This document shows positions 3,599 to 15,815 of a DNA stretch of 15,815 nucleotides, piece by piece; the first letter of the stretch is position 1, and the number at the start of each line of letters is the position of its first letter. Source of the DNA: Cyclostephanos tholiformis. Lineage: Eukaryota > Bacillariophyta > Thalassiosirophyceae > Thalassiosirales > Thalassiosiraceae. Under the pieces are notes generated by a model. It made no database searches. It saw nothing but the letters and a program-made list of their open reading frames with translations, and was not told the origin of the DNA. Position numbers and translations under genes: made by a program. Location of the stretch: the NCBI GenBank assembly GCA_036939975.1, contig JALLPB010000439.1, positions 1 to 15,815 on the forward strand, in the 5' to 3' direction.

Positions 3599-4305
3599 TG
3601 TCACTAATGATGTTTTTGGAACGAGTCCGATTTATGACGAAGTTGTGTTGAAGGAGGGAAGCGGCGACACGCAGAAGCTCAGCTGAAAAAAACTTTTTTG
3701 GCACAGCGAACCACCACGAACTCACGAATGCTCGGACAGATACAGAGAGAGAAAAAGAACTTCTCGAATTCGCGGAGGGCTTTGTTAAATACTAGTGGCG
3801 GCCAAATAATGTTTGTCGCGAAGAAACAAATTTATTCTTTTTTTTTCAGAAAAATTTTGATGTGGAAAAGAGTCACTCTATAGAGAGAGGGAACCCGCAA
3901 ATATTATTTGATACTCCTAATAATTTTCCCTCTCTCCTCCCCTCAAACCCTCAACGGGTGTCAGCTTGAATGTAGGTACTTGGAGGTACATAGGATTTCA
4001 TAGAAATACCTGCTGGAAGGGAACGGAGAATTTTTTCGGCTAAGTAAATAATTATGATGTATTAGGTATTATTAATAAGTACGTCGAGAAGTATTTTTGA
4101 TGCCTGTGGATTGATGGAGGACGGACGACGATGATGTGTGGAATGATGGGGAACAAAAAGTTAAAAAGTGCTGTTGCGTGACAGCCGAGGAACAAATAAT
4201 TAATACAACAAGTTATTATCGGGGTCGGATAAAGCGGAAAAGATCACCATCACGAGTGCAAGGGATTGCCCCTGTCCATCCCCCCACTCTGGAAAAAAGT
4301 AGACG
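3599..4305. promoter_or_regulatory. Divergent intergenic region (A20 gene and GT25-like gene)
   Basis: About 700 bp between the start codons of two divergently transcribed genes, so both promoters should lie here. It is AT-rich from 3800 to 4100, with an inverted repeat at 3883-3936 (listed separately). The short + strand open frames at 3698-3883 and from 4136 carry no recognisable domain. I could not define a core promoter element with confidence. Confidence 0.5.
3883..3936. repeat. 11-bp perfect inverted repeat, 32-nt spacer
   Basis: GAGAGAGGGAA at 3883-3893 is the exact reverse complement of TTCCCTCTCTC at 3926-3936. The spacer is AT-rich. It lies in the middle of the divergent spacer and could form a hairpin. 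The purine/pyrimidine bias makes a chance match more likely than for mixed sequence, so a function is uncertain. Confidence 0.7.
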
Positions 4306-5931
4306 ATGGTGTGCGACAACCAGAATTGCCGCCACAGGGACAAGCGTAAGCTCCGTCCTCTCGTTATATCACTCATACCAAAGAGCAATCAGGAGTTCGG
4401 CAGTGGCAGTGGTGACCGACACGAGCGAATCACTCGCATGTTCAAAACCCACCCCTCCCTTGCATTGCATTTTGAGCCGCCCACATTCTCTCCTGGCGTT
4501 CCATCTCGCGAATTGAGGAATAGGCTGACCTTTCTCGAGCATTGCAATAATGCTGGTTTGATACAGGAAGTTGAATGGAAGGCAATTACGAAAGCCGTCA
4601 CTGAGCAAACTGTGGGGCACGTGGAAGATGATAACAGTAGCCCAAAAATTTCGCTATTGGGTGGCGCATCAATGACTGATGATGGCGAGGTTGGAAAGCA
4701 CAAGGTTATTGATCCATTTAAATATATTGCAGTCGAAACATTAATACGTCCATGCGAAGAAGACTCTTGCGACATGACATCCAAAAAGAAGAAAAAACAT
4801 TGGGCGGAGTACCACACGACATCTCTCATACCCATCTCTCCCCATCGTCGGGGATCTGCCGATGATATCGCCGTACCCTACAGCATGGAGTTATGGCGCA
4901 AGGCCAAGACTCTCAACAGAGACCGGAGCGTTCTGGCATGCACACTTGCTCATTTGCTGGCAATGAAGACACTTGTTGGTGGTAGTAGCAGCTGTTCGCT
5001 TGACGGTATTGACGGAGATGGAGGGTTCGATTTCATCTTGGAGGACAACGTAAGAGCATTCGCAGGCAAAGCCGACTCTGGCGAGAGTCCAGAGGGAGCA
5101 GGATCAAGTGGTTGGAGCTGTGAGTGTGCCAATAGGATTTGGGATATAATCGAAGCATCAAAGGGGGCACCATCTGACTGCCACATGCGATATTACGGAT
5201 GGTTGGGTTCAGTGCCAAACATGGCTTGGATTTATAATAATCACATACCAAGAAGTGCTTTCAACAAAGCTACAATGCAAAATGACGCATCATGCGTTAT
5301 TTTTCCCTTCCCGACAAGTAAAGACTTTATGCTGGACTCGATTATCTCAACCTCCGGGCCAAAAAAGGAAGACCTAGAACAAAAAGGTCCGAATGGTGAC
5401 GGCCAAACTACAGAGGCATCTTCAGCGCCTCAATTTACGACCCCTGGAGGAACTGCTGCTGTCTGGGGAACATTCGCGTATACAATAACACCGTCAGCCC
5501 ACTGCACACTCATCAAACGTCTTCAAAATGACGTTGGCTCTCTCATGTGGAAAGGGAAGCGAATGAGAGCATATAAGGCGAAACCCATAGATAAAATTGT
5601 CCCACGTCATGTGTTGGCAGAGTTTGGACCAACGAGCGTGCATGTTCCCAGCAAGGTGGCGTTCGTGAGATGCCCCATGCTTGGTAGTTTACTTCATCGA
5701 CAATGGGAAGCAGGATTTTGCAGCAGTACTGAGTTGCAGTATCATTTGTCATGTGGCAGAGAGAGCGCCAATACTTTCACTTCTCCAGGGCCTGTCGATA
5801 GTTCTGATGTTTGGAATCATGTCTGGCTAGCGAAAGAAGAACGACAAATTGTACACCACAGGATTAAAACTGGGCACTGGGTCCATACAGCTGATGTAGA
5901 ACCGGTAATGAGAGGGGACGATGTGAGTTGA
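4306..5931 (+). CDS. GT25-like glycosyltransferase (putative)
   Basis: 541 residues from the ATG at 4306. The order of features resembles glycosyltransferase family 25 (LPS and collagen galactosyltransferase type). An N-terminal strand PLVISLIPKS is followed by a basic RHERITRMF segment and LHFEPPTFSPG. In the middle lies a helix-like RSVLACTLAHLLAMKTL (208-223), matching the family's SHL-type block, then FDFILEDNVRAF (241-252), which takes the place of the LEDD metal-binding motif with Asn for the second Asp. Next comes VWGTFAYTITPSAHCTLIK (386-404), like the Gly-x-x-Ala-Tyr-x-Ile segment, followed by KPIDKIVPR. It lacks a clear signal peptide or membrane anchor, which is odd for a Golgi/ER enzyme. 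The last four codons overlap a GTGAGT donor (see the candidate intron), so the C-terminus may not be the real end of the protein. Donor sugar and acceptor are unknown. Confidence 0.62.
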   Translation: MVCDNQNCRHRDKRKLRPLVISLIPKSNQEFGSGSGDRHERITRMFKTHPSLALHFEPPTFSPGVPSRELRNRLTFLEHCNNAGLIQEVEWKAITKAVTEQTVGHVEDDNSSPKISLLGGASMTDDGEVGKHKVIDPFKYIAVETLIRPCEEDSCDMTSKKKKKHWAEYHTTSLIPISPHRRGSADDIAVPYSMELWRKAKTLNRDRSVLACTLAHLLAMKTLVGGSSSCSLDGIDGDGGFDFILEDNVRAFAGKADSGESPEGAGSSGWSCECANRIWDIIEASKGAPSDCHMRYYGWLGSVPNMAWIYNNHIPRSAFNKATMQNDASCVIFPFPTSKDFMLDSIISTSGPKKEDLEQKGPNGDGQTTEASSAPQFTTPGGTAAVWGTFAYTITPSAHCTLIKRLQNDVGSLMWKGKRMRAYKAKPIDKIVPRHVLAEFGPTSVHVPSKVAFVRCPMLGSLLHRQWEAGFCSSTELQYHLSCGRESANTFTSPGPVDSSDVWNHVWLAKEERQIVHHRIKTGHWVHTADVEPVMRGDDVS

Positions 5932-6002
5932 AATCCAAGAACCTTAACGATCGCATGTTAAAGTCGTACATATAACTGCAAATGCATGACAATAAAACTC
6001 AG
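5923..6002 (+). other. Candidate 80-nt intron joining GT25-like and methyltransferase frames
   Basis: The codons just before the GT25-like stop contain GAT|GTGAGT (donor at 5923), and ACTCAG|TTC ends at 6002. Removing 5923-6002 joins the two frames in phase 0, skips the stop at 5929-5931 and would give one protein of 901 residues (539 + 362). The length is in range of introns in the neighbouring genes (57-287 nt), and the donor matches those of CAP-G2. Against it: both open frames are complete by themselves, and the pyrimidine tract before the acceptor is weak. Left as an alternative model. Confidence 0.4.
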
Positions 6003-7091
6003 TTCTACGATGTGTCAGTGAGTGAGAATCCTGGCGAAGTTTGCGCTGACATAGATTCTGTGGGGTCATTGAGATCACCTCCGAAAACTTCAAAGTTGCT
6101 CAAATTGATTTTATTGGCAGTGAGTTTTCGTGCAACATCTCTATTGATCTCTGCACTGGCATTCAATACTCCCGTCAAAAATCGGTTCAAGCGATCAAAT
6201 TATATGATGATGAAACAAGTTTCTGACAGGGCGCGCCGGCGAGGTAAGATAGGTAAAGTACCCATCATATCTCGGACGATATCTATTGACATCAAAGTTC
6301 CATCGGAGTCCCCCCAAAAGGGAGATTTATCGGCGACAGTTTACTCGGGAGGGAATGAAATCAAGACGCTAGACGTCACTGTATGGGAAATGGATAAGCC
6401 ATCGGATCTCATACACGAATGGTGGTCGATTGATCAGTCAGAACGCGATGCAAGGGTTGGTGACCCGTTTGGAGTTGTTATGTGGCCTGGCTCTATCTCA
6501 GCTGCACAGGAGATGATGAAAATGCATTACACACCTCAATACAAATCACCCATATCAAATGCCACGGTCTTAGTGCTTGGCGCCGGCACAGGTGTGGAAG
6601 CTAAGACAGCTGCACTGCTAGGTGCGAAGAGAGTTATTGCGACTGACATTAACCCGCTCACACTGAAGCTTCTAGAATATGGCGCAAACGATGACATCCG
6701 AATCGGCGATAACTTCGAGGGAAAATACTTCGATTTATTTTCTGACTTAGCACTTCCTACATGCGACATACTTATAGCGGCAGACGTTCTCTATAATCCC
6801 GAACTTGCCAAACAAGTCGGTCGTCGACTTCATGAAGCAATCGTTCGAAGATTCGTTGTGGGGGAATCGCCCACTAAGGTCATCGTAACAGATTCTCAAC
6901 AGTTTCATGGAACGAACTTTTTGGAGGAGGTATCTGAGCTAAGGGAATTAAACGCCATGTTCAAAGAGGAGAACTACGAACAATTGCGGTGGGTAACCCA
7001 GAAGCTTGAGAAGGTGTGCACTTCTGGTGTGCTGATTGACGAAGACCAGACTTATGACGTGGATGTCCGTATGATTAGCTGGGGTTGGTGA
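5982..7091 (+). CDS. METTL21-type (seven-beta-strand) protein methyltransferase
   Basis: 369 residues from the ATG at 5982. The class I Rossmann core is clear: motif I VLVLGAGTGVEA (196-207) binds SAM, VIATDIN (218-224) supplies the acidic residue for the ribose, and CDILIAADVLYNPEL (261-275) carries the Asp-Val-Leu-Tyr post-motif typical of the METTL21/EFM lysine methyltransferase group. Before motif I lies GDPFGVVMWPGSISAAQEM (160-178), matching the W-x-(A/G)-x-x-(L/A) substrate-side block of that group. Known members methylate lysines on chaperones, elongation factors and similar proteins; the substrate here is unknown. Residues 39-61 form a hydrophobic segment ending in ALAFNTP, like a signal anchor or the end of a plastid signal peptide with an ASAF-type motif, but it starts too far from the N-terminus. 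That suggests a missed upstream exon, a membrane anchor, or fusion with the frame just 50 bp upstream. Confidence 0.84.
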   Translation: MHDNKTQFYDVSVSENPGEVCADIDSVGSLRSPPKTSKLLKLILLAVSFRATSLLISALAFNTPVKNRFKRSNYMMMKQVSDRARRRGKIGKVPIISRTISIDIKVPSESPQKGDLSATVYSGGNEIKTLDVTVWEMDKPSDLIHEWWSIDQSERDARVGDPFGVVMWPGSISAAQEMMKMHYTPQYKSPISNATVLVLGAGTGVEAKTAALLGAKRVIATDINPLTLKLLEYGANDDIRIGDNFEGKYFDLFSDLALPTCDILIAADVLYNPELAKQVGRRLHEAIVRRFVVGESPTKVIVTDSQQFHGTNFLEEVSELRELNAMFKEENYEQLRWVTQKLEKVCTSGVLIDEDQTYDVDVRMISWGW

Positions 7092-7317: not shown

Positions 7318-10002
7318 TTACTCTTCAACTACAATGCCATTCTCATCAATCATGCCTAAAGTCGAAGATTTGATATTCTCTTGTGGATGCGTATCGTCTA
7401 ACGGGGTGAACAAAGATTCCATCGGCGGCCGAAACGTTGAGTTGAGAAGCTCGATTTTGAAGGAATCCACCAACTCAACGTCATCGCCATCCCCCCCATT
7501 CTGCAGGGCGATATTACCACAATTGCATAGCATCAGAGTCGAGAGGAAGACTCGGCACACTTCATATTCCTCGCAGTCATTTCTTACGATCGTCGAGAAT
7601 CGAACGATGTTGTTCCTACTCCCGCCGCTTGCCGAGGTCGAATCCAGCCTCTTCTCCCCCGTCGACGTCCTCTTTCTGACGGAAATGCCACGCTCTATCC
7701 TCTCGAGTATCTGACGACCTACTTGGTGGATGTTAAATTCGGGACGTTCCTCTTGCACCTCAAGCAGGGGCGCGAGGCCCATCTGCCACCTTCCTACTCG
7801 TTTCGTGAGCTGCGTCTCGGCGGCATATATCTCGGCACTTTTGGCGAATTTGCGAAGGTGGGCACGGCACAGCTCCTCGAACGTTTTCCGTCCATCATTA
7901 TTTGTGTAGCCGTCGTAGTCGTAATCAGCACGACGATCGCAATCATCGTCGTCGAATCTATCGCAGCTGCTGGCGGCATTGGTGAAGACATCCCCAATAA
8001 CATCAAAGTCGACGTTGCTACGATGGATCGACCGATTCGTATCATCGACGTCAGTTGGACCGACGCTAAAGTCGTCGTCGTACCCACCGTAATCGAATCC
8101 TCCACCTCCTCCTCCGGTGCTGTCATTTTCATCGTCGTCCACGTCCAAGACGTCTTTCGCGTCGATCATCGTCGCGCCCTCCTCGCCCTCGCGCTCGAGC
8201 AGCCGTCGTCGTCTCCTGGCGGCGTACCTGTTCCTCGCGTGCGCTTTGGCGATGTGTGCGAATTCGTCCCCGAATAACAACGCCCCGGGCTTGATGAGCA
8301 ATGCGGGGCGACGGCCACCATCCTCCCCACCACCACCGTTCATCATCACCTCGTCGAACGTGAGGTCGGCGAGGTACGGACGGCGCCGCGGATCCCGACG
8401 CGACCCCTCCGACGATTGTCGTCTTACGTCGTCGTCGTCGTTCCCCCCCCTTCTCTTGGACGATGCCCTCCTTTCGTCATCGGCCCTTGTCCTAGATCCC
8501 GTCACCGCCGCCGAGGGACGGTCGTCGTTGTCCATCCCGGGGGGGAGACGGATTGTGATCCCGATACGGATCGGACGCGGTTTGTCGTTCGACGGCTCGT
8601 GCGGGTCGAGCGTCGCCCACGGATCCACGGGTGCCGTGGACTTCTTCGTCGTGGTAGCGGGCACATGATCCTCGTCCGTCGTCTTGGGGTCGGTCGTCCT
8701 CGTCTTGTCATCCTCGTCGTCGTCACCATCGACCCCCCCATCGGGGTCGAAGCCTTGGTGATCGTCGTTCAGCTCGAACCCCACCCCGCCGTGATCGTCG
8801 TCGGAGCAATCGAACGTCACGTTGTTATTGCCATCGTAGTTGTTCTCTTCGGTGGAAGACGGTGCGGCCTGTCCTCCGGAAAGCACTTGAACGCACATTT
8901 CCGATGACGACGACGACGACGACGACGAACACGCTCCTACTCCACCACCACCTGCTCCCTTCGCTACTGCCACCGCGGCCTCCTCCCCATTCACGAAGTA
9001 GGTCGCCACCGTCCCCGGCATCAATAGCGCGCCATTGGGACCGATGTCCGTACCGCCCAGCAAACGCAGAGTTCCTCCCCGGCAGTTGTTCCCGGCCCTC
9101 CCTCCCCCCCCTCCTCCTCCTTCACCTCCTCCTCCGTCGCCGTCGGCGCCGTACCCACCCAGGAGGTTGGCGAGGAGCGCGCGCGTCATGACGGACGGAC
9201 TCGCGCCGTCGAAAGGGAAGGACCTTCTCCCTCCCGCATTCGCGGCGACGGAGCAGTTCGGACCTTCCCCCCCTGCCCCCCCCTCGACGTTGTCGGGCGA
9301 GGACATCATCCCGCCCAGGGAAAGGAGGGTGACGTCCCGCCCACCGCCGGGATCCTCCCCCCCCCTCTCCCCCCCCGCGACGGCGTCCCCCCCCATCGCG
9401 AGGTCGATGCTAAGTCGTCCGATCGTCCTATCGATCGGCAACACGTCGTCCATGGGCAAGAATTCCAATTCCGGATCGTGCGATCGGAATGCCAGCACGT
9501 CCTCGTCGTTACCATCCCCGGGGTGGAAACGCCTCCTCCTTCCCCCCACCCCGAGCAAGGCGATGGATTGATTGGCGAGGTCGTCGAGGACGACGTACGT
9601 CGCGCGGTGGAGGTATTCCACCTTCCGATCGTATATGCAGGCGGAATTCTGTATCTTCAACGCCGCGGCCGCGAACGCCTGCTGCGTGGTAGCAGTAGTC
9701 GAAGTCGCAGTCGTGGTCGTATTCGCGTCGACGGTACCGCCGCTGTCGAAATCGACGTCATCATCGTCGCTATCGTACTCGTCGTCGACGCGATCGAGTC
9801 GACGACGTCGAGGAATCGTCGTCTTCTCGAGGTACTCCCGTAGGTACGGCTCGATGTCGATGTCGAAGTTGCGCGCTAGGTCGCGCAGGGGCTGGACGTC
9901 GTCGATTTGGTCCCTGTCCTCCATCGTCGTCGTCATCTCCTCCCCCCGGCGTTCGACGACCCGCTTTAGCGACGTCGGCATTTTGTTTTTGGATTGTAGC
10001 AT
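7318..10002 (-). CDS. NCAPH2: Condensin II kleisin subunit CAP-H2
   Basis: 894 residues, no intron evident. The N-terminal kleisin domain is recognisable: VQPLRDLARNFDIDIEPYL (36-54) and then AALKIQNSACIYDRKVEYLH (113-132), close to the CAP-H2 signature. The C-terminal domain begins with FEELCRAHLRKFAKSAEIY (708-726), continues through a FNIH..GRQILERI block to about 769, and ends in a winged-helix-like VRFSTIVRND...YEVCRVFLSTLMLCNCGNI segment (from about 800). By family knowledge the N-domain contacts an SMC neck, the C-domain the other SMC head, and the middle binds the HEAT subunits CAP-D3 and CAP-G2. At 894 residues it is longer than animal CAP-H2 (about 600). The excess is low-complexity Asp, Gly, Ser and Thr tracts between 145 and 700. 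Met1, Met8 (9981), Met23 and Met27 are all possible starts. The gene is divergent from CAP-G2, its direct partner. Confidence 0.94.
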   Translation of the reverse strand: MLQSKNKMPTSLKRVVERRGEEMTTTMEDRDQIDDVQPLRDLARNFDIDIEPYLREYLEKTTIPRRRRLDRVDDEYDSDDDDVDFDSGGTVDANTTTTATSTTATTQQAFAAAALKIQNSACIYDRKVEYLHRATYVVLDDLANQSIALLGVGGRRRRFHPGDGNDEDVLAFRSHDPELEFLPMDDVLPIDRTIGRLSIDLAMGGDAVAGGERGGEDPGGGRDVTLLSLGGMMSSPDNVEGGAGGEGPNCSVAANAGGRRSFPFDGASPSVMTRALLANLLGGYGADGDGGGGEGGGGGGGRAGNNCRGGTLRLLGGTDIGPNGALLMPGTVATYFVNGEEAAVAVAKGAGGGGVGACSSSSSSSSSEMCVQVLSGGQAAPSSTEENNYDGNNNVTFDCSDDDHGGVGFELNDDHQGFDPDGGVDGDDDEDDKTRTTDPKTTDEDHVPATTTKKSTAPVDPWATLDPHEPSNDKPRPIRIGITIRLPPGMDNDDRPSAAVTGSRTRADDERRASSKRRGGNDDDDVRRQSSEGSRRDPRRRPYLADLTFDEVMMNGGGGEDGGRRPALLIKPGALLFGDEFAHIAKAHARNRYAARRRRRLLEREGEEGATMIDAKDVLDVDDDENDSTGGGGGGFDYGGYDDDFSVGPTDVDDTNRSIHRSNVDFDVIGDVFTNAASSCDRFDDDDCDRRADYDYDGYTNNDGRKTFEELCRAHLRKFAKSAEIYAAETQLTKRVGRWQMGLAPLLEVQEERPEFNIHQVGRQILERIERGISVRKRTSTGEKRLDSTSASGGSRNNIVRFSTIVRNDCEEYEVCRVFLSTLMLCNCGNIALQNGGDGDDVELVDSFKIELLNSTFRPPMESLFTPLDDTHPQENIKSSTLGMIDENGIVVEE
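8906..8927. repeat. GAC/GTC trinucleotide microsatellite in CAP-H2
   Basis: An uninterrupted GAC run on the + strand that reads as a poly-serine tract on the CAP-H2 strand. Shorter GAC/GTC runs are scattered through 7.9-9.9 kb and again at the start of CAP-G2. Such tracts are prone to length variation and explain much of the low-complexity middle of CAP-H2. Confidence 0.9.
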
Positions 10003-10026
10003 ATAGTGATGTTATTCCTCCCACTA

Positions 10027-10027
<1 letters not shown>

Positions 10028-10059
<32 letters not shown>
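10028..10059. repeat. C32 homopolymer (G32 on the CAP-H2 strand)
   Basis: 32 consecutive C residues starting 26 bp upstream of the CAP-H2 ATG at 10002, closely followed by further C runs (10066-10072). On the CAP-H2 sense strand it is G32, probably within the 5' UTR, where it could form a G-quadruplex; the C strand could form an i-motif. Homopolymers of this length are often mis-sized in assemblies, so the exact number is unsafe. Confidence 0.85.
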
Positions 10060-10062
<3 letters not shown>

Positions 10063-10169
10063 CTTACCCCCCCGTCCGACGCGAACGATGGGGTTGCTAT
10101 TTTCTTCGTTGGTCGTTGTTTTGCCTCCTCCAGATGAGATGATTGTTTTGAATGTTGACATGGTTTTTT

Positions 10170-10177
10170 TTTGGCGC
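10170..10177 (+). promoter_or_regulatory. E2F/DP consensus site TTTGGCGC
   Basis: TTTGGCGC is an exact match to the E2F/DP consensus TTTSSCGC, preceded by a T run as in canonical sites. It lies 168 bp from the CAP-H2 start and about 305 bp from the CAP-G2 start. E2F sites drive S/G2-phase genes in plants and animals; binding in this organism is inferred. Confidence 0.6.
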
Positions 10178-10184
10178 GGCATTT

Positions 10185-10195
10185 TGACCGTTGCG
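10185..10195 (-). promoter_or_regulatory. MSA-like MYB3R element
   Basis: On the minus strand 10195-10185 reads CGCAACGGTCA, matching 10 of 11 positions of the plant mitosis-specific activator consensus YCYAACGGYYA, including the AACGG core. It starts 7 bp from the E2F site. MSA elements bind three-repeat MYB proteins that control G2/M genes. The function is inferred from the match and from the nature of the flanking genes. Confidence 0.5.
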
Positions 10196-10481
10196 ATTTG
10201 TTCCCCACCCATTAACGTAGGAATTAGTTTTCGTCGAGGGTAGCCTCCCCTGAAAACCTTGACCGCCGCCGCGCCGCCCCGGCCGCCCCTTCCGACGAGG
10301 ACGAAGTCGACGAAGACGACGACGGAAGAAGTGGAGTGTTTATTTATTTTTATATTCTGAGCCTGACTTATCGTAACCCGCTCACCAACCGCATAATAAT
10401 TACTATATATATTTTATACCACCCACCTTGGTACTCGACTCCGCGCGCATCCTCAATAAAAAAAAATTGCGAAATAATATC

Positions 10482-13400
10482 ATGGCAGTGCCGAGAGGGA
10501 AGAGGAGTACGAAGACGACGAAGGAGGCGGCCACGAACGACAGCGACAACGGCGGCGGCGGCGGCGTCGGCGTCGTTCTCCCCCCCCCCACACCCACTTC
10601 CACGACCAAGTCCGCCATCGCCGTCCTCGCTCACGCGGATATATTCGCCGCGATCGAGTCGTCCGTGATTACGCCCCGGCCGCTCCTCGACCTCTTCTAC
10701 CCCCTCCCCCCCCCCTCCCGCCATCATCGCGCGAGGGACTACGACGTCGACGACTCCCTCTACGATGACGAGCACGAGCTCGAGCACGACGACGGGGGGG
10801 GTAACGACGATAACGTCGGGGCCGCCGGCCGCACGACGACGAATCGGAGGCGCGACGCTATACTCGAAGTGGTGCGAGACGCCGGATTCAACAGGGCGCG
10901 TTCGCGCAGGCTGTTCGGGGGGATGATGACGGCAATATCGAGGATCGTCGATGGGGGGGACTACCTCCCTCCGACGGTCGACGCCCGGGAAATAGACAAT
11001 GACGACGTCGACGATGCGATGGACGCCGCGGACGACGACGACGGGATGGTGGAAGCCGAGGAATCGGTGCGGTTCCTGGGATGCTGCGCCTCACTCGTGG
11101 AGGCGTACCTGCGGGGGGTCCTCTCGAGGCAGAAGAAACAACAGCGCGCGACGACGTCGTCGTCCTCGCAGATGCAGCAGCAGCAGCAGCAGAAGAAGAA
11201 GATCGATGTCGTCGACGAGGCGTTCGAGGTAGCGGGGACCCTGCACGACCTCCTCTTCCCCCTCCAGCAGGGACGTCAGGGGTCGTCGTGCGCGTCGTCT
11301 TTCAAGTCTCGTTGGTCGAGGTACGCGTCGCGGACGCAATCGGCGATTTTCTCCATGTGCGAGACTTGGTGGTACGGCAACTTCGTCGATCGCGAACGCA
11401 TGGTGACGCAGCTGGTTCCGCTACTGCTCGTTCGATCGCTCGACGTCGATGCCAAGCGCGACGACGTCCGACGGCTGTGTGCTGTACGCACGGCCATCGA
11501 CCTTCTCGACTTCGATGACGAGAGCATATCGAGCCTGAAGATCCACCTTTTGCGGACGGTGGGTCATCCCCTCTTCTTGAGGTGTCCTGAGGGACGGAGA
11601 TTCGTTGGACACTTGTTCCTCGTGGACGCGTCGTTCGTTACGGAGGTGCACGGTGCCGTCAAAGCGCAGATACCGGGAGCAAAAAAGAGCGTGTTGGAGG
11701 CATACGCCGAGATTTACTACGGCGCGTGGAAGGCGTCCACCGAAATGATAACGAACGATGGGGATCGTCGCGACAATCGCGTGCACGGTGGGGAGGAGGA
11801 GGAGGATGGCGAACGAGGAAATGGCGTCCTGACGGCCGCGGCGAATGCGATGGGGGAGATTCAATCGTCCATCGAGGAGAACGCCCTCCAAGACCTAATG
11901 TACCACGCCATGCACGCTTCGTCGCCTGCCACGGCCAAATCGGCCCGCGCCGTCCTCGACAGGTTCCACGTGAACAAGAAAGCGCACGACGTGGAATCGA
12001 TGCTCCATCGGACGTACGGCCCGTTGCTTTGGAGGGGACTGTCGAGTGCGAACGCTCGCGTTCGTACCAGGGCGTGCGCGGTACTCGCCGACACCTTCCC
12101 GCTCCGCGATCCTAGGGCGGGCGATGAATCCACGGAGGCCGTCGTTGATAGGAGCGTAGGTGCGTTGGTCAAGTCTATGAAGGACGAGGTACCATGCGTT
12201 CGGGTGGCGGGGAGCGCGGCAACGGCGAGGATACTCGGCTGCTTTTGGGCCATGATACCGATCGCGCACATACGCACGTTGCTTAATCGTGAGTGTGGTA
12301 TATGACCTGAATACAGAGCAGCGTGTGCGCTTTTCTACTTCAATTCCTATGGGACTCCTCGCTATTGACTTTCGTCACTCTCACGAACATATCGATATCC
12401 TGTTTATTTAATTCTATTCCAGACATAGTTGCTATACATGCCTCCGACGCCTCGTCGCCCGCCGTTCGAGCCGCAGCCGTAGACGCCGTCGCAATCCTGC
12501 TAGAGAACAATATGACTCACGCCGTCTTGCGACCTCTTCTTCCATCGATCGGAAATCTGATCCACGACAAGTCTGATAAGGTCCGACTAGCCGTGGTAAA
12601 CATGCTACTTTTGGTCAAGAAGATTCGCGGGATGAAGTACTATCACGTTGTGCCGGCGAATCACCTCCTCGCTCGCTTGGCGGACGAGGGGCACGGACGC
12701 AACGATCCACGTGGTCCGGTAGCACGCGCCCTTTCGGACCTGCTAAGCAACTCCTTCTTTCCCACCGGGAGCAAGACGACTATGACAGATATCGTCAATC
12801 GTACTATAAGGCTGCTTACGGACAGTCCCAAGGCGGCGGTCGTGTTTTACCGCAATGCGTCCTCGCAGCTGTCAGTCCATTCGATCTCCAAGCTTATCGC
12901 AGCCCTGACGAAATGCCTCTGTTACTTCGTGATTGAAGAAAAGAAAAAGAGTCACGAGAACGTGAATGGCATGCTCCTCGCGATACCGGAGGTGGAATCG
13001 ATCCAGTGCAAGGGCGGTCCTTTGAGTATGGCTATGATGGCCACGATCGCCGAGGGCGTATCCATCCTGTGGGAATCCATTGACGCCAAGCTGAGGGAAT
13101 CCGGGAACGAGCGAGCCCACGAAAGCCTCGTGGGCGTTTTCTCGGGCAAAGTTCTCACCGAAGTGTACTTTCACTTTGTGGCTAAATTCTACGACATCGA
13201 ACCGGGCAGTGACGAATTCGACGACTGCTCTCGCGTCGTTGTTGCCACTTTGAATTGCGCAGGGAAATTAGAAGAAGGACGATGCGAAAGATTGCGCGCT
13301 GGCATAATCGACGAATTGCGAAAAACGAGCGACTCGTCAACAAAGCAAAGCGTGAATGCAGATCTCAGCCCGAATATTGCCCTATTATGTCAATGGGGCA

Positions 13401-14849
13401 TGATGGAAGACGTCGTGCAGTGCCTTGCATCGTCGATTCGACAGCATTTCGAAGGCAACGCCAGCGAGCCGAAGAACAGTTTTGCCACGAGAATGTCGAT
13501 GGATTTCAGTCAACGGAAAGAGCGTAGTGACGGTGCTAATGTCAAGAATCTTCCGACGCTAAGTATTGAAGTGTGCTTGGGAATTCTCGGACATGTTTTG
13601 AAAGGATCTCATCCTGCATCGGCGTCATTGCGTGCGTCCATTCTGATGTCGGAAACCGCATTCGTTGCAATTTCGTCCGCACTGCTAACCTCGAAGAGCG
13701 CGGCCGAGCGGATGATTAAAGCTGGGATTGTGAGTTGCACCAATATTTCCATCATTTGTCGTATTAATATCTATTTATAGCTCACAGGACTGTTACATGT
13801 GCACCTGTCAGGCTTCAAACGAAGATTTGAGACTACTGCGGCACCTGGGCGTATCCCTCGAGTGTTACGGAAGATTTCTGATTCACGAAAGCTCAATGAA
13901 AGGTGACCTTCCCGTGAAGTTGACCCCCGCGCTAAAGTCTTTATTAAAATGGGTCACCGTCACCGTCGTTCCATCTTTGGTGAAGCTGGTGGACCAAGAT
14001 AACACGCTCATGAATCTCGACGTATCGGGAATCATGTGCGTGGGATCTCCGATATCTGCTCAGGACGCTGCTGGACTTCTCGACGATTTACCTTTCATGG
14101 ATGAGGGGAGATACTTCAACGTTCTTGAAGACAAGTCTAAGTCTCTCTCCTCCCTGGTGGCTGTCATTTGCTGTGCCAGCTCCGTCATCCGCATTTTCGC
14201 AGAATGGCTATTGATTCGGTCCGTCGGCGATTCCTTCGTCACGGAACAAATGACCAAGATATGCAAACTCCTAGAATGTTCGGATAAGACAGTCAGAAAT
14301 GCGCTTTTACCGCTGATCTTTCATACTGCAATTATTTGTCTGGAAATTGATGGAGATTCCACTTTGTTCGAAAGAATTCTAATCAGTATGAAGACTGTAG
14401 ACTCAAGCCAGATGGAGGAAGATATTGTATCTCATTACATGTCGGTCGTGCTAGCACAACGAGACGAACATCTTTTGAAGGCTGCCATGTCTGCAATTGC
14501 GAGAGTGACCCACACCATCCTTTTAGATGCGGAAGAAATTGAGGATACATCTATGATAAAGACACCTTTTATCGAGAAAGTTGGTGCGTTCATGGGAAAA
14601 GTTATCGAGCACGTCTTGAGTGAGAAACGCAGCAGTTTGCTTCTGGCCCAATGCATTTTCAACAAGAACAAGGCTGGGGCGCTGCGAGAGTGGTTATTTG
14701 AAGAGTTGAATGAAAGGTCTCCTAAGACCGAGGCATTGAACGAAATTCTACGCAGATGGGCACTCGAAATTTCATCTAAGGATGCAATTCATGCTCCGCA
14801 CGATGATAAGGAGAACAGCAACATCAATCAAAACTCCTTGCTGAATTAA
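10482..14849 (+). CDS. NCAPG2: Condensin II HEAT-repeat subunit CAP-G2, three exons
   Basis: Spliced model: exon 1 10482-12288, exon 2 12423-13729, and exon 3 from 13788 (or 13812) to 14849, about 1391 (or 1383) residues; animal CAP-G2 is near 1140. The start is the ATG at 10482 (MAVPRGKR); upstream in-frame sequence has no ATG. After a Gly/Asp-rich N-terminus and a short poly-Gln, the HEAT region carries family blocks: GHPLFLRCPEGRRFVGHLF (about 361-379), YGPLLWRGLSSANARVRTRA (about 512) with ADTFPLRDP, then in exon 2 PLLPSIGNLIHDKSDKVRLA and NSFFPTG. These follow the CAP-G2 order closely. The protein binds the middle of CAP-H2 and contacts DNA in condensin II. The C-terminus ends KENSNINQNSLLN, with a KEN-box-like motif. 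Exon 1 is very GC-rich, exons 2-3 are not. It shares a divergent promoter with CAP-H2. Confidence 0.93.
11173..11190. repeat. CAG run encoding poly-Gln in CAP-G2
   Basis: A short uninterrupted CAG run in exon 1 of CAP-G2, encoding six glutamines and followed by AAG codons (Lys). It lies in a linker before the HEAT region and is probably length-variable. Confidence 0.85.
12289..12422 (+). other. CAP-G2 intron 1
   Basis: 134-nt intron with a GTGAGT donor at 12289 and a pyrimidine-rich TTTAATTCTATTCCAG acceptor ending at 12422. Splicing joins a phase-1 codon (C + AC, His) and links RTLLN to IVAIHASDASSP, keeping the HEAT repeat in register. Reading through the donor meets a stop at 12303-12305. 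Confidence 0.93.
13730..13787 (+). other. CAP-G2 intron 2 (acceptor uncertain)
   Basis: GTGAGT donor at 13730, phase 0, after ERMIKAGI. Two acceptors keep the downstream frame: CTCACAG ending at 13787 (58-nt intron) and CACCTGTCAG ending at 13811 (82-nt intron). They differ by 24 nt, i.e. eight residues (DCYMCTCQ). The nearer TTATAG ending at 13780 puts exon 3 out of frame and hits a stop within about 40 codons, so it is not the coding acceptor. Confidence 0.85.
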
Positions 14850-15336: not shown

Positions 15337-15815
15337 CTACCAGAGTTTTGAAGTGGGTTTCATTTTTGTGGGTTTCTTTGATGTGGGTTTCTTTGATGTG
15401 GATTTCTTTGATGTGGGTTTCCTTGATGGTTTCAATCTTGTGTCTGATGACGAAGAGGAAGAGGAAGACGAAGATGAAGACGACGATATCCGGGGCGGTT
15501 TAGTTGGTTGTGGTGATCTTATGGGCGCAACAATAATTTGAGGACTCGGATTCATGGACGCTTGACTGGTTGGAGACTGAGTGGGTGAAAAAGTTGGTGA
15601 GCTTGTGGGATGCCTGCTTGGGCTCTGGGTAGGTTTCATGGACGGTTGGCTGGTCGGAGACTGAGTCAGTGAAAAAGTTGGTGAGCTTGTGGGATGCCTG
15701 CTTGGGCTCTGGGTCGGTTTCATGGACGGTTGGCTGGTTGGAGACTGAGTCGGTGAAGAACTTGTGGGATGCCTGCTTGGGCTCTGGGTAGGTTTCATGG
15801 ACGGTTGGCTGGTCG
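15337..15815 (-). CDS. Ser/Thr/Pro/Lys repeat protein, 3' part only
   Basis: The frame is open to the right edge of the window, so the N-terminus and any signal peptide or domain lie beyond 15815. The visible part has three zones. First, near-perfect repeats of about 28 residues built from MKPTQSPSRHPTSS and PTQSPTSQPS. Second, a linker (IIVAPIRSPQPTKPPR) leading into a run of 14 serines. Third, a basic tail of four KKPTS-type pentapeptides ending in KPTSKLW before TAG. Such PT/SPT-rich stretches are frequent linkers or stalks in secreted and wall-associated diatom proteins, and Ser/Lys-rich sequence recalls silica-associated peptides; neither role can be shown from this fragment. Confidence 0.75.
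   Translation of the reverse strand, partial: TSQPSMKPTQSPSRHPTSSSPTQSPTSQPSMKPTQSPSRHPTSSPTFSLTQSPTSQPSMKPTQSPSRHPTSSPTFSPTQSPTSQASMNPSPQIIVAPIRSPQPTKPPRISSSSSSSSSSSSSSDTRLKPSRKPTSKKSTSKKPTSKKPTKMKPTSKLW
15354..15427. repeat. 15-bp tandem repeats encoding the KKPTS tail
   Basis: Four units of GTGGGTTTCTTTGAT or one-base variants (15368-15382, 15383-15397, 15398-15412, 15413-15427), with a degenerate copy at 15354-15367. The unit is exactly five codons on the minus strand, so copy-number change keeps the frame. Confidence 0.9.
15554..15815. repeat. 84-bp coding tandem repeat, continues past window
   Basis: Successive TTCATGGACG anchors place repeat boundaries at 15554, 15638, 15722 and 15797: spacings of 84, 84 and 75 bp. 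The last differs by a 9-bp in-frame deletion. Copies differ by only a few bases (for example GGGTAGG versus GGGTCGG), which suggests recent duplication or homogenisation. All units are multiples of three. Confidence 0.9.

Follow-up and report, generated by a model that had tools for sequence, protein, structure and literature searches.

Cyclostephanos tholiformis, a centric diatom of the order Thalassiosirales, carries two intact condensin II genes placed back to back. They encode the kleisin CAP-H2 and the HEAT subunit CAP-G2, lie on opposite strands about 0.5 kb apart, and stand on one contig in each of two records of the species. The window, meaning the whole 15,815-base stretch of DNA that was analysed, is the entire contig C432 of a 24.95-Mb genome in 1,566 contigs, and position 15,815 is the contig end. 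We regard the two as a genuine bidirectional gene pair that is probably young, consisting of ordinary genes in a layout that is uncommon yet not unprecedented. The reading that we place first, and hold with about even confidence, is that these genes were rearranged into this position within Thalassiosirales and are transcribed divergently from a single promoter region bearing an E2F-type element. The features are collected in Table 1.

Table 1. Features of the CAP-H2/CAP-G2 locus, in positions of the window
Feature	Position	Strand	Remark
CAP-H2 (condensin II kleisin) gene	7318..9981	-	one exon; Pfam CNDH2_C/CNDH2_N, PDB 9f5w_H, alignment with 12 relatives
Divergent gap, candidate bidirectional promoter	9982..10481	.	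between the two start codons; promoter function putative
TTTGGCGC, E2F-type site	10170..10177	+	sole TTTSSCGC match in the window
CAP-G2 exon 1	10482..12288	+	contains the Condensin2nSMC domain
CAP-G2 exon 2	12423..13729	+	preceding intron 12289-12422, GTGAGT...CAG
CAP-G2 exon 3	13812..14849	+	intron 13730-13811 picked by agreement with database protein P0001

The CAP-H2 open frame spans 7318-10011 on the minus strand (897 codons), with its stop at 7318 and its start either at the first methionine (ATG 10002, 894 residues) or at the second (ATG 9981, 887 residues). The second, which opens MPTSLKRV, is preferred by the relatives, since P0073 and P0079 start MPAT and P0061 starts MPAK. Only two Pfam families match the frame at E <=1, namely CNDH2_C (E 4.6e-29, 101.5 bits, curated cut-off 32) and CNDH2_N (E 2.2e-17, 63.6 bits, curated cut-off 32.3). 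The only PDB match at E <=1 is human CAP-H2 (9f5w_H, 3.1e-11), and the relatives align along the protein. Across the genome contigs searched, the CNDH2 C-terminal profile has a single match, which is the CAP-H2 of the window. By homology, the role of this protein is that of the kleisin of condensin II, a subunit described as bound by Cap-D3 and Cap-G2 in the available portion of King et al. 2019 (PMC6759200).

CAP-G2 runs on the plus strand from ATG 10482 to the stop ending at 14849, in three exons and two introns, and encodes 1,383 residues. Its first exon matches the Condensin2nSMC family of Pfam at E 8.3e-46 (156.2 bits, cut-off 27), and its HEAT matches fall under the Pfam cut-off. Human CAP-G2 (9f5w_G) is the best PDB match of the spliced protein at 1.3e-70, obtained with a 1,391-residue form as query; the remaining four matches at E <=1 are 6.2e-5 or weaker. 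A second acceptor at 13787 is likewise in frame, and the intron 13730-13811 is the best choice because P0001, the C. tholiformis database protein, then differs from the CAP-G2 of the window solely at residues 238 and 866. The identity between the two is 100% over the part searched, these two residues being the full-length differences. Both condensin II genes are unbroken, with intact frames and splice sites.

The sequence-only reading had taken the pair to be condensin II subunits, and this identification stands: the Pfam profiles are far above cut-off, and the best PDB matches are human condensin II chains. A better match to condensin I, which that reading had named as grounds for withdrawing it, was looked for with a negative outcome, Cnd2 and Cnd3 being unlisted at E <=1, and a condensin I identity for the pair is rejected. 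CAP-H2, with both CNDH2 domains, is accordingly assigned by profile to the condensin II kleisins ahead of the condensin I kleisin, and CAP-G2 to the condensin II HEAT subunits ahead of condensin I CAP-G (Cnd3). Viral or phage kin of CAP-H2 were absent from the phage records and viral contigs, as were viral or prokaryotic kin of CAP-G2 from the viral contigs and prokaryote genome contigs. A viral or bacterial origin of the pair is rejected, as it has no relatives in the phage, viral or prokaryote collections searched.

CAP-H, the kleisin of condensin I, is encoded separately, on contig C178. Its first frame reaches only 0.0017 against CNDH2_N, which is under cut-off, and the neighbouring frames scanned gave one zinc-binding dehydrogenase match and zero condensin subunits. 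SMC4 is found on contig C50 and SMC2 on contig C1096. CAP-D3 was not found in the contigs searched, a genome set that looks like a subset, with all contigs seen longer than 10 kb. The profiles PF12719 and PF12922 had zero matches in the genome contigs and likewise zero in 14 prokaryotic controls, and hence had no positive control. The best Cnd1-profile match (C51), considered as a condensin subunit, turned out to be AP-4 epsilon.

The head-to-head layout of CAP-H2 (minus) and CAP-G2 (plus), first described from the letters of the DNA, is borne out by frames, strands and start codons. Its spacing of 479 bp is also correct when counted from the first possible CAP-H2 ATG (10002) to the CAP-G2 ATG, and becomes 500 bp (9982-10481) if CAP-H2 starts at the second methionine. 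Bidirectional pairs are divergent genes with starts less than about 1 kb apart, and the two genes, at 479-500 bp measured between start codons, belong among them.

A false join would undo this layout, and the suspected place is a homopolymer of 32 C within the gap (10028-10059), which lies 47 bases away from the probable start codon of CAP-H2. An assembly artefact uniting two unlinked genes near this homopolymer gains some ground from a published C. tholiformis assembly, whose N50 is given as only 6,992 in the accessible part of its description. Against it stands another C. tholiformis record, in which CAP-G2 (P0001, ACHAXA_008904), CAP-H2 (P0059, ACHAXA_008916) and the adjoining methyltransferase (P0113, ACHAXA_008911) all lie on one contig of 86,720 bases. 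This record departs from the window by three residues in the two condensin proteins, over the parts covered, which makes it another assembly or allele, though perhaps one resting on the same reads; its CAP-H2 is a partial model that omits the N-terminal part. A false join of CAP-H2 and CAP-G2 is unlikely, and one at the homopolymer we regard as very improbable.

Several other features of the window were observed. Between 7318 and 14849, GC content and GC3 peak at the 5' end of each gene, next to the gap, and drop toward both 3' ends, GC3 going from about 0.8-0.87 near the gap down to 0.4-0.65; this gradient could stem, among other causes, from biased gene conversion near promoters. At 328-1884 there is an LrgB/CidB-type membrane protein (Pfam LrgB 5.5e-31; NCBIfam matches under cut-off), which we assume may be a PLGG1-type plastid transporter for glycolate/glycerate. 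The open frame at 4303-5931 (542 codons) has no Pfam match at E <=1 and no NCBIfam match. A Methyltransf_16-type methyltransferase (5976-7091, 2.2e-07) adjoins CAP-H2. At the other end, a minus-strand frame at 15337-15815 encodes serine/proline/threonine-rich repeats (84-base unit, 3.3 copies) and runs off the contig end. Rfam gave zero matches within the window.

How surprising is the adjacency? With about 19,600 genes, the number given in a table of the accessible part of PMC12159174, the named pair would be divergent neighbours by chance with a probability of ~2.6e-5 (about 3e-5); for the ten possible pairs of condensin II subunits taken together, the figure is ~2.6e-4 (about 3e-4). These figures speak against chance neighbours, yet they overstate the surprise because any complex would have drawn notice: many complexes exist, and a wide scan would meet some partner pair. 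The chance account holds that a rearrangement left the genes adjacent, each having a promoter to itself inside the 0.5 kb, in a layout that is functionless. We give it a little less than even confidence, so that chance adjacency ranks close behind the shared-promoter reading.

Related species bear on both accounts. Linkage was compared indirectly, through 58 CAP-G2 and 53 CAP-H2 listed relatives, by equating contigs of identical base count; the relatives scored are the candidates sharing most words, and a cluster representative may mask members on other contigs. Two contigs are common to both lists, the 86,720-base contig of C. tholiformis and one of 2,022,245 bases from Skeletonema marinoi. 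This 2.02-Mb contig carries both genes, a coincidence expected by chance in ~3% of cases when the contig is set against an S. marinoi assembly of 65 Mb stated in the accessible part of PMC12159174, which is possibly a different assembly; the low figure is a further point against chance neighbours. In Cyclotella cryptica, one contig of 360,505 bases and another of 407,755 bases carry the two genes separately, and a third, 1,111,126 bases long, holds the nearest relative listed for the adjoining methyltransferase. Gene order thus turns over in Thalassiosirales, the order to which all three diatoms belong, and this favours chance neighbours. Many other listed contigs are too short to tell or have only one partner listed, and the long ones have no same-size partner among those listed.

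The split in Cyclotella cryptica means that the adjacency is not fixed within Thalassiosirales, and the linkage seems to be of recent origin or unstable, not an operon-like unit of great age. The opposite view, an old linkage of Thalassiosirales or of centric diatoms that selection maintained and that broke in Cyclotella cryptica, draws on the contigs shared in C. tholiformis and S. marinoi. It is weakened by the fact that S. marinoi offers a shared contig alone, with neither distance nor orientation, and that the two lists (58 and 53 proteins) have no further contig of equal size in common, even though several of their contigs are longer than 20 kb; we consider it improbable. The synteny check proposed at the outset gave a divided answer, with a shared contig in S. 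marinoi on one side and separate contigs in Cyclotella cryptica on the other, and it is doubtful that the pair has been conserved as a unit. The suggestion that linkage would favour joint loss finds no support: the accessible part of King et al. 2019 (PMC6759200) reports that insects lose condensin II subunits in different combinations, which argues against a general rule of joint loss driven by linkage.

A motif in the gap favours the preferred reading, of one shared promoter region. TTTSSCGC, which we take to be the E2F-type consensus, occurs once in the window against 3.1 matches expected in shuffles, and that single match lies in the gap, a point against chance neighbours. Genome-wide, the pattern is matched 2,923 times, on average every 8.5 kb, against 1,731 times for its reverse. 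Promoters were defined as the 600 bp that precede the first in-frame ATG or the frame opening, several gene starts being approximate. E2F-type sites are found upstream of CAP-H (-324), SMC4 (-305) and SMC6 (-118), and cohesin SMC1 has two, 22 bases apart (-516 and -494; L024:2177-2206), about 0.5 kb upstream. SMC2 has none in the 815 bases examined upstream, its first exon not having been found. The site is present in 5/6 condensin/SMC promoters, including the CAP-H2/CAP-G2 gap, versus 5/31 controls (Fisher p 0.003), in an exploratory comparison whose motif was picked after the gap had been inspected; leaving out the CAP-H2/CAP-G2 locus gives 4/5 versus 5/31 (p 0.009).

The controls with a site comprise 1/8 TCP-1 genes, 1/3 Cnd1-profile genes, of which C51 alone is identified, and 3/20 mitochondrial carriers, one carrier with 107 bases upstream being scored as a hit. 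Kinesins, with a site in 1/12 upstream regions, several of them short, were kept outside the 31 controls; their addition gives 4/5 (again without the CAP-H2/CAP-G2 locus) versus 6/43 (p 0.005). The weak SMC contigs C436, C63 and C1065 and a weak MCM match (C612) were left out before counting. Also left out were one TCP-1 contig of nine (C30, where the match begins mid-protein), two of five Cnd1-profile contigs (C1170 and C514), seven of 27 carrier contigs, and three of 15 kinesin genes (C417, C907 and C85). MCM genes, chosen as a positive control, had the site upstream in 0/3; for one of them, no ATG was found in frame and a copy of the motif occurs 2,063 bases ahead of the point where the frame opens. 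The MCM and kinesin counts, together with SMC2, make a general E2F reading weak. Shared cell-cycle control of CAP-H2 and CAP-G2 through the E2F-type element is a plausible lead and no proof. In Phaeodactylum, the E2F1 gene has served as an S-phase marker, according to the accessible part of PMC4392632.

On the shared-promoter reading, a rearrangement within Thalassiosirales would have placed the two genes back to back, and one region of ~0.5 kb with the E2F-type element would most likely transcribe both divergently. An E2F/DP-type factor acting at the gap may then raise the CAP-H2 and CAP-G2 mRNAs together around S/G2, so that a kleisin and a HEAT subunit in direct contact could be kept in step. 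A more ambitious proposal is that the pair is a selected bidirectional unit in part of Thalassiosirales and also belongs to a candidate SMC regulon, spanning condensin I and II, cohesin and SMC5/6, that one E2F-type element in the promoters would time. Taken jointly, these two claims seem to us rather unlikely, slightly more so than the old linkage. If the selected unit were true, the uncoupling in Cyclotella cryptica would serve as a natural experiment on the dosage of condensin II.

For the present, the main value of the locus is as a record of intact condensin II genes from a centric diatom, in an arrangement that is probably young. If it is a working bidirectional unit, it would offer a compact handle, with one 0.5-kb promoter and one candidate element, on condensin II dosage in a unicellular alga, and would make it possible to examine whether linkage shields a complex from stepwise loss.

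The human CAP-H2 and CAP-G2 genes are on different chromosomes, unlike the adjacent genes of C. tholiformis. In their products, the two systems are alike, the human condensin II structure (PDB 9f5w) having the same domain families and providing the best PDB matches; the diatom proteins are longer and contain acidic, glycine-rich and serine-rich low-complexity stretches. Condensin I CAP-H (Cnd2), the kleisin of the sister complex, likewise shows an E2F-type site in its upstream region in C. tholiformis, but its gene is a separate one on contig C178. Among titles and abstract openings on diatom condensin II and on bidirectional or head-to-head pairs, none dealt with such a condensin pair, and PMC11541908 names condensin II in its reference list only. 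A close likeness in layout is offered by head-to-head mitotic gene pairs with a bidirectional promoter such as human PRR11-SKA2, two division genes that are divergent across a short gap, as described in the accessible part of PMC7833434. The PRR11-SKA2 promoter has been tested, whereas that of the diatom is putative, and the products of the diatom pair are partners in one complex.
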